DNA from: Planctomycetia bacterium
GTDB taxonomy: Bacteria > Planctomycetota > Planctomycetia > Pirellulales > Thermoguttaceae
Assembly (NCBI GenBank): GCA_030527705.1
Contig: JAUNAI010000004.1
Coordinates: forward strand, 1 to 38,703
DNA length: 38,703 nucleotides
Reading direction: 5' to 3'
Made by a program: the position numbers and the translations under genes. Shown here piece by piece: positions 11,765 through 28,034 of the stretch (position 1 is the stretch's first letter; the number at the start of each line of letters is the position of its first letter). A model generated the notes under the pieces. It was not told the origin of the DNA. It ran no database searches and saw nothing but the letters and a program-made list of their open reading frames with translations.

Positions 11765-12472
11765 ATGAAGATGAAACGAGAAGCGCCGACGCCACATATA
11801 TTTAATTTTGAAGACCTACAGAATCAGGCTGAAACGTATCTTGAGGCGGTCCGGAAGAAAGCGCGTGAAATTATTTCGGAAGCGGCGCTGGAAACGAAAC
11901 TGCAGCAGGAACGTCTTCTGGCGGAAGCGGACACAATACGGGAAAAAGCTCGACAGGAAGGGTATCAGGAAGGAGTTCGGCTTGGTACTCTTGAGGCGGA
12001 AAATAAGATTCAGGCGGAACTCCAACGCCGATTACAGCGTGAAGTGGCCAGTGCGGTAGACTCGTCGCGGAAGGGAATGGTGAATCTTCTGGAACAGTGC
12101 GCCAATCTGCGTGAGGAAATGACGCAGAACTGGGAAAATGCGTTTCTCCGTCTTGTTTTTCGAGTCGCGAAGACCGTTATTCGGCGGGAATTAAAACAGG
12201 AACCACAGATTTCTGTGCAGTGGATCCGCGAGACGCTGGAATTAAGTCTCGGCGAGAACGGACTGGTTTTAATCCTAAATCCGGAAGACGCAGTTCTTCT
12301 GAAAACGCCATTAGAACGCCTTTTCAGCGAGTTTCGGCAACTTGGGCAGATTGAAATCCGGACCGACGCAACACTCTCACGCGGTGACTGCATTCTGCGC
12401 TCAGAGAATGGTCAGTTGGACCAGCGTCTCGACAGTCAGCTTGCACGAATAGAGGAGGAGTTGAGCGCATGA
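11765..12472 (+). CDS. fliH: Flagellar assembly protein FliH (stator/regulator of FliI)
   Basis: The 235-residue product is a cytoplasmic peripheral stalk protein of the flagellar type III export ATPase. It has a long alpha-helical N-terminal half rich in Glu, Arg, Gln and Ala (YLEAVRKKAREIISEAALET, then LAEADTIREKARQEGYQEGV). The C-terminal domain (FRVAKTVIRRELKQEP, SLGENGLVLILNPEDAVLL, GDCILRSENGQLDQRLDSQL) matches the FliH/YscL/V-ATPase E-subunit fold. The central GYQEGVRLG is typical of the family. The 3' end overlaps fliI by four bases (ATGA), indicating translational coupling. The region before the ATG is A-rich with no clear Shine-Dalgarno, and 11771 is an alternative ATG. It follows the broken kinase-FGE gene closely. 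No other flagellar gene lies in the window. Confidence 0.85.
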   Translation: MKMKREAPTPHIFNFEDLQNQAETYLEAVRKKAREIISEAALETKLQQERLLAEADTIREKARQEGYQEGVRLGTLEAENKIQAELQRRLQREVASAVDSSRKGMVNLLEQCANLREEMTQNWENAFLRLVFRVAKTVIRRELKQEPQISVQWIRETLELSLGENGLVLILNPEDAVLLKTPLERLFSEFRQLGQIEIRTDATLSRGDCILRSENGQLDQRLDSQLARIEEELSA

Positions 12473-13947
12473 ATCCACTCTCACTTCTGAATCAGCTTGA
12501 CACGATTATTCCGACGGCGATTACAGGGACCGTTCAGGAAACAGCAGGAACAACGGTTCTCGTCAGTGGTTTTCCTGCTCCGGTCGGCGCGTTGGCAGAA
12601 ATTCGGCTCCGAGATCGGTCCGTACTACCGGCGGAAGTGATAGGCTTCCATGATAAAACAGCCGTTCTGTATCCGCTTCAGTCGACGCATGGTATCCGTC
12701 ATGGTGACCGTGTTCATCTGGTGCAGACTGCGCCGTGGCTGACGGTCGGAGAAGGAATGCTCGGAAAAGTCCTCGACGCGCGCGGACGTGTGATGGAAAC
12801 CAGCGGTTCTGTGTCAAGTTCCACCTACGGTTCAATGTATAATTCCACGTATAATTCCGCATATAATTCTACGTATGGCACAGCGAGTAATTCAGCATAT
12901 CGCACTGGTTCAGGAAATGGAAACGCCTCTACTCCGGTACGTAAAAATGGCTCCGTTTTGCGAGAAGCCCCAACGAATGACGCGATTCTGAATACGGAGC
13001 GGATTCCGTTTCATCGGGAAGCGCCTAAAGTTTTCGAGCGGCCGAGAATTACGACTCCGATTTCCACGGGCGTGCGGGCGATTGACGCGGTTCTAACGCT
13101 CGGTGAGGGACAGCGTGTCGGGATTTTTGCTGGTTCCGGCGTCGGGAAAAGTACGCTTCTGGGGATGATTGCGCGTTATTCGAATGCCGACGTAATCGTT
13201 ATTGGGCTGGTTGGGGAACGCGGACGTGAGGTGAATGACTTTCTAGAACGAGATTTAGGGCCGGAAGGACAGAAACGGAGCGTGGTGGTCGTCGCAACAA
13301 GTGATGAACCCGCTATTTTACGTGTCCGTGCGGCTCAGACAGTGACGGCAGTCGCGGAATATTTCCGAGATCAGGGGAAAAATGTCCTGCTTCTGATGGA
13401 TTCTCTGACGCGATTCGCCATGGCACAGCGTGAAATCGGTCTTGCGGCTGGTGAGCCACCCACGCGGAATGGTTATCCGCCGTCGGTTTTCGCTATGCTT
13501 CCGGCGCTTGTGGAACGTACGGGACGCACGCGGACGGGAAACATTACCGCCATGTACACGGTTCTGGTGGAAGGGGACGACGAAAATGAACCGATTGCGG
13601 ACACAGTGCGTGGACTTCTGGATGGACATATCTGGCTCTCGCGGAAATTGGCGTCGGCGGGACATTATCCAGCAATTGATATTCCGTCGAGCATCAGTCG
13701 GCTTATGAATGACATTTGTGAGCGTGACCACGTTCAGACGGCGCAGGAACTCCGCGCGATGATTTCTCTGTGGCGTGAGTTTCAGGATTTAATTGCGATT
13801 AACGCATATAAACGCGGCACGAATCCGGCACTGGATGTCGCGTTGGAGAAAAAGAAAGCGATTACGTACTTTTTGCGTCAGAATACCGATGAGCCATCCA
13901 CGCTGGAAAAAGCAGTCACGGAGATGATGGAAATAATTCGGCGATAA
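12469..13947 (+). CDS. fliI: Flagellum-specific ATPase FliI with a low-complexity insertion
   Basis: The 492-residue product is the hexameric ATPase that energises flagellar protein export, related to the F1 beta subunit. Walker A is GSGVGKST (222-229). The flanking motifs are GVRAIDAVLTLGEGQRVGIF, IGLVGERGREVNDF and the Walker B-like NVLLLMDSLTRFAMAQREIG, followed by EPPTRNGYPPSVF. The C-terminal AINAYKRGTNPALD is typical of FliI. Between LDARGRVMET and KVFERPRITTPIST the chain is about 45 residues longer than usual. The extra part (about residues 112-165) is Ser/Tyr/Asn-rich with YNST/YNSA repeats encoded by 12-bp DNA repeats. The insertion lies between the N-terminal beta-barrel and the ATPase core, so the core may still work. 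It is coupled to fliH by an ATGA overlap and followed by a terminator at 13964. Confidence 0.9.
   Translation: MNPLSLLNQLDTIIPTAITGTVQETAGTTVLVSGFPAPVGALAEIRLRDRSVLPAEVIGFHDKTAVLYPLQSTHGIRHGDRVHLVQTAPWLTVGEGMLGKVLDARGRVMETSGSVSSSTYGSMYNSTYNSAYNSTYGTASNSAYRTGSGNGNASTPVRKNGSVLREAPTNDAILNTERIPFHREAPKVFERPRITTPISTGVRAIDAVLTLGEGQRVGIFAGSGVGKSTLLGMIARYSNADVIVIGLVGERGREVNDFLERDLGPEGQKRSVVVVATSDEPAILRVRAAQTVTAVAEYFRDQGKNVLLLMDSLTRFAMAQREIGLAAGEPPTRNGYPPSVFAMLPALVERTGRTRTGNITAMYTVLVEGDDENEPIADTVRGLLDGHIWLSRKLASAGHYPAIDIPSSISRLMNDICERDHVQTAQELRAMISLWREFQDLIAINAYKRGTNPALDVALEKKKAITYFLRQNTDEPSTLEKAVTEMMEIIRR
12838..12885 (+). repeat. 12-bp tandem repeat inside fliI
   Basis: Four in-frame units (TATAATTCCACG, TATAATTCCGCA, TATAATTCTACG, TATGGCACAGCG) encode YNST, YNSA, YNST and YGTA. 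This is the core of the non-conserved insertion, which probably arose by slippage. Confidence 0.85.
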
Positions 13948-14083: not shown

Positions 14084-14126
14084 AAAAAAATAAAAGCAGT
14101 CCGAATAATATATTCGAACTGCTTTT
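14084..14126 (-). terminator. Terminator of the candidate small RNA
   Basis: AAAAGCAGTTCGAA and TTCGGACTGCTTTT (minus strand) form a 14-bp stem with one G-U pair, followed on the minus strand by TTTTATTTTTTT. On the plus strand the stem has a C-A mismatch and only a short T-run, so the minus direction is favoured. Confidence 0.8.
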
Positions 14127-14283
14127 AAACTGGTATCTATGGAGGAAAAGCGTACTTATTGATCTGATCCCTCAGACCTCCCCGGAAAAGAAGACGCTTT
14201 ATCATCCCTAATCCTGCCATCCCCAGTGGTATAAATTGTCGAATTTCAGGAAAAGATAGGAGAAAAGCCATCCTTCATGGATA
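14085..14283 (-). ncRNA. Candidate structured small RNA (about 200 nt), family unknown
   Basis: A complete transcription unit without an ORF. On the minus strand a TTGCAA-N17-TAGAAT promoter predicts a start at about 14283. The first and last 13 nt of the body (14271-14283 and 14134-14146) pair as a closing stem with two A-C mismatches, which would be G-U on the plus strand. Inside are two arms. The first pairs CCTA/TAGG and TCCTG/CAGGA (14207-14216 with 14247-14260), capped by AAATT-CGAC-AATTT. The second pairs AAAGCGTCTT with AAGTACGCTTT (14147-14157 with 14191-14200), containing the hairpin GGTCTGA-GGGA-TCAGATC (14161-14178). A rho-independent terminator follows at once. Size fits 6S RNA, but the branched fold does not clearly match its rod, and the SRP RNA tip motif is absent. 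The remaining part of the 13948-14540 gap is A/T-rich spacer. Confidence 0.65.
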
Positions 14284-14288
14284 TTCCT

Positions 14289-14317
14289 ATTCTAACACTC
14301 ATTTCAGTATTTTGCAA
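14289..14317 (-). promoter_or_regulatory. Promoter of the candidate small RNA
   Basis: On the minus strand, -35 TTGCAA (14312-14317), a 17-bp spacer and -10 TAGAAT (14289-14294). The predicted start falls exactly at the foot of the closing stem. The same -35 hexamer is found at 8560 and 21787. Confidence 0.7.
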
Positions 14318-14540: not shown

Positions 14541-15437
14541 ATGTCCAAAAATGCCCTTCTTCAGTCGTCACTCGATTTTCCTGTTCGTCACGGAAAGGTG
14601 CGCGACGTTTATGACCTCGGCGACGAAGTGCTTCTCGTCAGCTCTGACCGAATCAGCGCGTTCGACTGGATACTGCCGTCCGGAATTCCGGATAAAGGCC
14701 GAGTTCTGACGCAGATTGCTGCGTTCTGGTTTGAGAAATTGGGGGAAGAAAATCATCTGGTGACTGTCGATGTGGATAAAATGCCGTGTCTGGACGGTGT
14801 GGACGCTGCGACGAAACAGGACTTGGCAGGGCGTTCCACGCTGTGTAAGAAATCGAGCGTTTTCCCGGTTGAGTGTATTGTTCGTGGTTGTCTGACCGGT
14901 TCCGGTTGGAAAGAATATCAGAAAAATCAGACGATCTGTGGAATTCAGCTTCCTGCTGGTCTACGTGAGAGTGAGCGTCTCGAGACGCCGATTTTCACCC
15001 CGACGACGAAAGCGGAAGAGGGACATGATGAAAATATCACGTTTAAGCAGATGTGTGAAATCGTTGGAACGGAAGCTGCGACGGAACTGCGTGACCGGAG
15101 TATCTCCCTGTTTCAGCGTGGTGCGGAATATGCGGCAAGTCGCGGAATTATTATCGCCGACACGAAATTCGAGTGGGGGCTGCGTGACGGAAAAATCATC
15201 TTGATTGATGAAGTTCTTACGCCGGACAGTTCACGTTTCTGGCCTGCCGACGATTATGAAGTGGGACGCTCGCAGAAATCATTCGATAAACAGTTCGTGC
15301 GTGACTGGCTTCTCGCTTCCACGTGGGACCGAAACAGCGTTCCGCCACAGTTGCCGGAAGATATTATCGCGAAAACGCGCGAGAAGTATATCGAGGCATA
15401 TGAAAGACTGACCGGAATGGAATTTCCGTGGAAATAG
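14541..15437 (+). CDS. purC: Phosphoribosylaminoimidazole-succinocarboxamide synthase (SAICAR synthase)
   Basis: The 298-residue enzyme of purine synthesis joins CAIR and aspartate with ATP hydrolysis to form SAICAR. Family motifs in order are [20 protein letters not shown] (nucleotide-binding loop), [66 protein letters not shown] and [15 protein letters not shown]. The length fits the longer purC subfamily, as in yeast Ade1-like and planctomycete forms. CAAGGAG lies 8 bp before the ATG. A -10-like TATAAT at 14485-14490 lies upstream but has no convincing -35. Other pur genes are not adjacent. It is followed by the inverted-repeat element at 15449 and then the acyltransferase gene on the same strand. 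Confidence 0.95.
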
Positions 15438-18402: not shown

Positions 18403-20480
18403 TTAAATTTTCCGTGATTTTCTTCTCAGGAAAACGATTCCAACTGCGCCACCGAGAAGCATTACCCACGTCGCAGGTTCCGGGACGGCGTTGTGATTGA
18501 GGGAAACGGTGAAACCATTACCAACGGCGGTAAGCAACCACAAATTCGACGAACTTTCCGCCAAGCTCGCTCCCAGAGCGTCCCAATTGAGACCTTCGAC
18601 AAAAGTTACGCTATTCGCGGTCAACTCATAGGACGCCATAAACATTTCGTCTGTCGTCAGTCCGTCCGAAAGCACGGAAATTGACGCGCCCTTGCCAAAC
18701 AAAACACTGCCATATACCGTTCCGACATCGTTTAACGAGCCGTTCGTGAAATCAATAACCAAATCGCCGTTAAGTGTCAAATCTTTACTGATTTTTCCCT
18801 CAAGATTCAGCCCCGCGTCAGCGTTGACCGTTACATTAGAACTCGTAAATTGGGCAGTGGAAGTAAGTCGCAGAACGCCACCTTCGACCGTTGTTGTACC
18901 GGTGTGGGTACTCGTTCCGGTTAGCGTCCACGTTCCCGGTCCTGCTTTAACGAGGTTTAAGTTACCGTCGAATTTTCCGGCAAAAACGTTATCCATGTCG
19001 GAAACTAACTGCGTCGGACCTCCAACTTTCACCGTCGGTGTTCCGGAACTGGTGCCACTTCTCGTGATTCTCGTGTTTGAATCATTACCGACTAGCGCAC
19101 CGAAGTGGAACGTTTCAGCTCCCTCCGAGCAAAACGCAATCCCGTTCGCTCCAGTGATGTCGTAAATCGCCTTCGCGCTGATAGAACACGCGCGGTAAGG
19201 TTCTAACCATGCCGGACTTGATGAACGCAGGGTACCGGTAAATTCGCGGTTATCACCGAAAAGGTCTAATTTAGTGTTCTGCGTATGAAGTAACGTCCCC
19301 GACCCAGTTATGTCGCCACGAATCCCGATGCCATTTATTTTTGTGTTAAGTGTCTGGATTTCAAGTGTGCCATTTGCGATTTCAAGGTCAGCGTTTAAGA
19401 AAACCGCGTTGTTCGTCGCATTCTCATCCGAAAAACTACGAGCAAAAGTTTCAACGGCACTGTCTTCCGAGAATGTCAGCGTTAATTTTCCCGTGCCGTC
19501 CTTTACTAATTTAGCACTGATAAAATCGGTATCAACGGTCGGGTTGTAAATCCTTCCTGCCCACGCGGTTCCGGAAGTTTCTGTCGTAAGATTCACAATA
19601 TATTTCACATCGTCGGAACGGTTAAACTTCAGCGTCCCTGCTTTTCCGATGGTAATATTCGGCGCGATTGTGTCATTCGCGGTATATATGGTGTTTTCTA
19701 AATCTAAATCTACCTTGCTCACGACGCCCGTCGTCCCGCCGTTTCCGATGGCGAGCGTTCCACCTGTGACGGTGATTCTGTCGCTTAGTTCAACTTTTCC
19801 GGTTAGTGTCCATTCTCCAGTGCCGACTTTATTAATGCCGAGAGGGTATTAGCAGTGATTTCGAATTTTCCTGCGTACGTCGAGTTTTTATTCAATGCTC
19901 CGACTTCACAGATGATGAGAGATTTTGCATTCGTACTTGTAACCGTCGAACTTTTCGAGGAAGACTGAATTGTCGTACTGGCGTTAGAGGTACTCATGTC
20001 GCCGAAAGCGAAAATTGCCGTAGGAACGTCTATCTGAGAGGCAAGTGCGAATCCCTGTGTGTGAGAAGCCGTGAAAGAAATGTGACTCATATCCCACATA
20101 CTTGTATCACCAGAAGTTGTGGAGTTGCCCGCGACGGAGTACATCTCAATCCAACGGTTGATTTCGTTACTAATCGTGCCAGTGAAACCGCTCAAGTCGG
20201 ATTTCAGAAGTAAGGTATTCGCCGGACCTGTGTGCCGAATCGTTCCCGTCCCGGTAATCGGACCGGTCAACGTGATATTTCCAGCGGAACAGTTGAAAAT
20301 CGTGTCACCACTGACGTTAATTGTTTCAGAATAAGTGCCGCTTCCAGACCAAGTATTCTTGTCTGGATTGTACGTAACCTCCGAAAACGCACTCGTCGTT
20401 ATCCCCACGACTAAAACGGAAAACGCGGCGATTTTATGAAGCCGATTCCGGAAAACGGGATATTTATAGGTTATTTTCAT
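18403..20480 (-). pseudogene. PEP-CTERM autotransporter-repeat protein, frameshifted
   Basis: Translation starts at the ATG at 20480 after GGAG, with signal peptide RLHKIAAFSVLVVGITTSAFS. The chain is Ser/Thr/Gly-rich passenger-like beta-helix sequence. The first frame ends at 19803 (SALENGH). The continuing sequence is in another frame: INKVGTGEWTLTGKVELSDR, then SKVDLDLENTIY onward. That frame has a TAA at 19849-19851, so the break lies within 19803-19851, probably near CCCTCTCGG at about 19838-19848. Downstream, KAGPGTWTLTGTSTHTGTTT is an autotransporter-associated beta-strand repeat. The C-terminus VPEPATWVMLLGGAVGIVFLRRKSRKI is a classic PEP-CTERM sorting signal: VPEP, membrane helix, Arg/Lys cluster. 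It would be an exported surface protein of about 690 residues if the frame were intact. It lies 46 bp after the DUF1559 gene, so co-transcription is likely. A sequencing error is possible. Confidence 0.8.
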
Positions 20481-27799: not shown

Positions 27800-27822
27800 C
27801 CCATTTAACTCAAAAATAAAAG

Positions 27823-27895
27823 AGCGGGCGAAGGGGTTCGAACCCTCGACAACGACGTTGGCAACGTCGTGCTCTGCCAACTGAGCTACGCCCGC
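27823..27895 (-). tRNA. tRNA-Gly (anticodon GCC), copy 2
   Basis: The 73-nt cloverleaf has acceptor GCGGGCG/CGCCCGC, D-arm GCTC-AGTTGGCAG-AGC, anticodon stem CGACG/CGTCG with loop TTGCCAA (anticodon GCC), and T-arm GAGGG-TTCGAAC-CCCTT. CCA is not encoded. It is identical to the copy at 27962 and sits 66 bp after it in the direction of transcription. Confidence 0.95.
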
Positions 27896-27961
27896 AAGAT
27901 GAATCTGAAGTAAAAAACTTTTCGACTCAAAATGATTGTTTTTTTTGAAAAATTTTTCAAG

Positions 27962-28034
27962 AGCGGGCGAAGGGGTTCGAACCCTCGACAACGACGTTGG
28001 CAACGTCGTGCTCTGCCAACTGAGCTACGCCCGC
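27962..28034 (-). tRNA. tRNA-Gly (anticodon GCC), copy 1
   Basis: Same 73-nt cloverleaf as the copy at 27823, with anticodon GCC in loop TTGCCAA. It is transcribed first, from the promoter at 28088, about 50 nt upstream. Identical tandem tRNAs suggest a recent duplication and high Gly demand. Confidence 0.95.

Follow-up and report, generated by a model that had tools for sequence, protein, structure and literature searches.

An intergenic segment from a Planctomycetia bacterium carries an element that is almost certainly a real RNA gene without a cis-acting role, restricted, as found so far, to one genus of gut Thermoguttaceae (Planctomycetota, Pirellulales). In the stretch of DNA analysed here (the window; 38,703 nucleotides), this gene lies on the minus strand, flanked by the unrelated genes fliI and purC on the plus strand, as a unit with an extended −10 promoter, an RNA of about 200 nt and an intrinsic terminator, and homologues are present in six of the eight genomes of the same genus (G000, the window genome, and G002, G003, G004, G005 and G007). 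We propose, tentatively and with somewhat less than even confidence in the statement as a whole, a stand-alone non-coding RNA gene whose product acts in trans by pairing through its pyrimidine blocks. A literature search found no paper describing this RNA, which we regard as a new family within a well-known class and not as an unfamiliar type of system. Few small RNAs have been mapped in the Planctomycetota: for the PVC group as a whole, an Rfam survey names only 8 sRNA families (PMC9029176). A conserved candidate whose ends are well defined, from a genus that seemingly lacks Hfq and has several CsrA genes, offers a concrete entry to planctomycete RNA regulation.

A complete, independent minus-strand transcription unit had been described in a first-pass annotation of this DNA, and the promoters and terminators of the six homologues bear that description out (Table 1). 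The TTGCAA-N17-TAGAAT promoter that it reported recurs in every copy as TTGCNN and TA(A/G)AAT, separated by a spacer of 16–17 nt that ends in TGN; the window copy, too, has a TG upstream of the −10 hexamer, which the annotation did not mention. The adjoining rho-independent terminator with its T run was likewise correctly recognized, and a strong terminator follows the RNA in all six copies, with sequences that are unrelated or nearly so. Scans of the window gave four promoter-like sites against 2.4 expected in shuffled sequence and one terminator against 1.4, so that the motifs alone are near chance and derive their significance from conservation in six genomes. The annotation had hesitated between the strands, a doubt that is settled because all six promoters and terminators are compatible only with the window's minus strand. 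Transcription probably starts at about 14282, giving a predicted RNA of roughly 195–200 nt.

Table 1. Coordinates of the RNA gene, its predicted parts and its neighbours in the window.
Feature	Position	Strand	Conservation or remark
purC	14541–15437	+	
Whole transcription unit	14085–14317	−	
−35 hexamer, TTGCAA	14312–14317	−	TTGC equidistant in six of six homologues
Extended −10, TGT TAGAAT (TAGAAT at 14294–14289)	14289–14297	−	TGN-TA(A/G)AAT in six of six, spacer 16–17
Predicted transcript	about 14282 to about 14085	−	
5′ hairpin, ATCC-ATGAA-GGAT	14270–14282	−	alternative to the closing stem; 92.5% of cells paired in five sequences, mostly by invariant pairs
Pyrimidine block A, GCTTTTCTCC	14259–14268	−	anti-Shine-Dalgarno-like; GGATG(A/G)CTTTTC(T/A)C in five genomes, weaker in G007
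Arm P2, CTTTTCCTG ... GGATGGCAGGAT	14211–14255	−	nearly fixed in G000, G002 and G003
Purine strand M, AAAGCGTCTT	14191–14200	−	conserved; can pair with block A or block B
Apical hairpin, GGTCTGA-GGGA-TCAGATC	14161–14178	−	forms in six of six homologues; ANGGA at the loop
Pyrimidine block B, ACGCTTTTCCTCC	14141–14153	−	conserved; kept in five genomes
GATACCA	14131–14137	−	invariant in five genomes
Intrinsic terminator, 17-bp stem and T run	14084–14127 (stem 14127–14091)	−	terminator of unrelated sequence at the same place in six of six
fliI	12469–13947	+	

When 60 related genomes were searched at the DNA level, G002 and G003 matched strongly; identity with the closest relatives extends from the promoter region to GATACCA and does not continue into the genes on either side. 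Five copies (G000, G002, G003, G004 and G005) served to build a covariance model, which recovered each of these, its own sources, at 3e-32 or better and gave no convincing match beyond them in 119 genomes of the family. Searching the other three members of the genus under relaxed settings yielded a weak match in G007 (E 0.03), which we consider a convincing homologue because it occupies the same position as in G002, G003 and G004, divergent from a metallophosphoesterase-like gene, with the same promoter, motifs in common and a terminator. The same search found no homologue in G001 or G006, in which the element is either dispensable or diverged beyond reach. Conservation in relatives, the point on which the first-pass annotation had staked its reading, therefore stands in six of the eight genomes: the linear blocks, the apical hairpin and the terminator are kept, and the closing stem that it proposed holds in only three.

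Of the known homologues, a pattern scan of the named genomes recovered just three. The weak hits that the model gave outside the genus and a second one in G005 (L040–L044 in all) were judged to be chance, as the conserved blocks were not seen in them, and the G007 sequence used as a query found no homologue outside itself, the inspected matches looking coding or fortuitous. In arm P2 of the G007 copy (L090, about 1501–1760), an extra hairpin separates the ACAAATT motif from ATACCAC. Of the homologous contigs, two come from a Thermoguttaceae bacterium (goat colon and water deer rectum) and a third from a Planctomycetia bacterium.

The neighbours differ: fliI and purC in G000, another context in G005 and the phosphoesterase gene in G002, G003, G004 and G007. 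The combination of a conserved promoter, a turned-over terminator and differing neighbours therefore argues for an independent RNA gene. As far as sequence can tell, the element looks like a discrete RNA gene maintained by selection and has the marks of a trans-acting sRNA gene: its own promoter, an intrinsic terminator, an orphan context and no conserved open reading frame.

Conservation resides in linear blocks more than in helices. The blocks that stand out in the alignment are GGATG(A/G)CTTTTC, AGCG(T), CGCTTT(T/C)(C/T)CTCC and GATACCA, and blocks A and B hardly vary across five genomes; parts of arm P2 are recognizable in G007, and the arm has diverged in G004 and G005. Folded with the terminator, both strands lie below shuffled sequences (z = −2.9 for minus and −3.5 for plus), but the window core without the terminator is no better than shuffles (z = −0.2), some other copies being modestly better. 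Most of the low energy behind any fold-based claim is thus the terminator. In the window copy, the 13-bp closing stem of the first-pass annotation amounts to 11 pairs and includes A-C mismatches. It pairs better in G002 and G003, is weak or missing in G004, G005 and G007, and competes with the local 5′ hairpin. With the closing stem confined to the three closest relatives (G000, G002 and G003), the three-way junction is confined to them as well and fails as a defining fold. Predicted folds are multi-arm. In the model structure, 92% of cells are paired, mostly through invariant pairs, and covariation in the stems proved weak, with two both-side changes, a number that 30 of 500 shuffles matched or exceeded. 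Among the internal helices the apical hairpin is best supported: it forms in all six copies from unrelated stem sequences and is clearly below shuffles in four of them, the window copy not being one of these four.

The element fits no known RNA family, in line with the annotation's label of an unassigned RNA. The Rfam search that it recommended (6S/SsrS, SRP and all others) was run with Rfam 15: no family reached the gathering cut-off for the window copy, and the homologues gave no match even at E 0.5. The SRP RNA model (RF00169) was rejected as an identity, matching elsewhere in all four genomes tested and nowhere in the window. RF00013 found no 6S RNA in the genus, which at first left it possible that the element was a diverged 6S. 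We therefore used a planctomycete 6S model, derived from relatives that lie outside the genus and oriented as the Rfam hits are. It detected a single locus in every genus genome, eight in all (3e-15 to 1e-9), carrying the motifs TTGGTGAGCCGATA and GGGCTCTCCAATA. Neither this model nor RF00013 matches anything in the window or at the homologous loci. Given a separate 6S locus in every genus genome and no match of the model at the element, the element is a different RNA, in agreement with the annotation, which had set 6S aside. The two are alike in length (about 200 nt), in having their own promoter and terminator and in their orphan position; 6S RNA (SsrS, RF00013), however, is a long rod with a central bubble, which the predicted folds here lack.

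How the RNA works is suggested by its most conserved segments. We infer that it acts in trans as a regulator and that it most likely does so by presenting the pyrimidine-rich blocks CUUUUCNCC and CGCUUUUCCUCC, which would pair with the ribosome-binding sites of target mRNAs; such pairing is favoured because the blocks resemble anti-Shine-Dalgarno sequences. The eight genus genomes gave no Hfq hit, and pairing, if it occurs, would have to do without that protein. Trans-acting sRNAs that are independent of Hfq and have C/U-rich seeds are known, for example RsaE/RoxS of Firmicutes, which share with the element conserved pyrimidine-rich blocks complementary to the Shine-Dalgarno sequence, a likeness of description. 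The purine strand AAGCGUC is able to mask each of the two blocks and may decide which of them is free. This same capacity to hide both blocks counts against pairing, and among 30 loci that match the complement of block B exactly, a part of all such matches, no convincing ribosome-binding site was seen outside the element. Pairing of the purine strand with block A or B has good predicted energies in all six copies but shows no covariation beyond composition. Compared with cross-genome pairings, the native ones are barely more stable in one comparison and less stable in the other (−13.3 versus −12.9 and −12.8 versus −13.7 kcal/mol), so the switch has no support beyond composition, and we rejected it as a proven feature. 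On balance, pairing through the pyrimidine blocks is the mechanism to which we incline, as a tentative proposal.

Binding of a protein offers a different account of the same RNA. The main rival to pairing, a serious one although we think it unlikely, is that the apical ANGGA hairpin titrates one or more CsrA paralogues, making the RNA a reduced CsrB or RsmZ. It is motivated by 3–5 CsrA genes in every genus genome (G000–G007), alongside the apparent lack of Hfq, and by an ANGGA at the apical loop of G000, G002, G003 and G005 despite the unrelated stems. Across the six RNAs there are 39 GGA triplets, compared with 17.5 expected from base composition, but the count does not significantly exceed that of dinucleotide shuffles (34.6 expected, p = 0.15). 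Most are predicted to be paired, which usually leaves one clearly exposed per RNA, and the apical loops of G004 and G007 have no GGA; the multiple exposed ANGGA hairpins of a CsrA-titrating RNA are therefore not seen. In its ANGGA loop and its host with several CsrA genes the element resembles CsrB/RsmZ-type RNAs, which differ in presenting many exposed sites; no Rfam match links the two. Somewhat less likely is that the RNA serves another protein as scaffold or regulator, for example RNA polymerase in the manner of 6S, with the conserved blocks as protein contacts. The predominance of linear blocks over helices and a size near that of 6S would suit it, and the dedicated 6S gene in all eight genomes, the failure of the 6S model to match and the absence of a rod-like fold argue against it. 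Very unlikely, finally, is a bistable genus-specific RNA in which the purine strand covers either anti-Shine-Dalgarno block and the GGA hairpin recruits CsrA; if true, CsrA binding would switch which mRNAs pair in an Hfq-less planctomycete.

Readings that would place the function in a peptide or in the adjacent gene are more improbable still. The first-pass annotation was mistaken in stating that no open reading frame is present: a minus-strand ATG at 14271 of the window copy opens a frame of 44 codons. A small protein encoded there is nonetheless highly improbable, for although the frame is open in G000 and its first twelve or so codons are common to G003, one- and two-base indels disrupt it in G002 and G003, the frames of G004 and G005 end early and differ, and G007 has no equivalent; no reading frame is conserved among the homologues. 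We give equally little credence to a role in cis, as a leader or riboswitch. The G007 copy is followed by a methionine synthase-like gene in the same orientation, but that gene has its own promoter-like site past the terminator, and in the window the next gene downstream is the convergent fliI. A cis role is unlikely because the neighbours differ, and no downstream gene is conserved among the homologues.

The 6S search also yielded genes beyond the comparison for which it was made. The set comprises L061 (179–380, +), L052, L053, L055, L056, L057, L058 and L060, together with L031–L034 and L047–L050, and covers Thermoguttaceae and relatives, including all eight genus genomes. Most of these genes are missed by Rfam's model, and in several genomes the 6S gene adjoins a gene for an ATP-binding protein that is larE-like in appearance. 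6S RNA has been reported absent in Thermogutta terrifontis, with its absence in Pirellula and Rhodopirellula cited there (PMC5673643); the loci found here call into question the absence reported for Pirellulales. Elsewhere in the window, two tandem tRNA-Gly(GCC) genes with equal covariance scores lie 65 nt apart at 27822–28034 (−), and 18403–19722 (−) encodes a protein with a passenger-associated-transport repeat and a PEP-CTERM motif.
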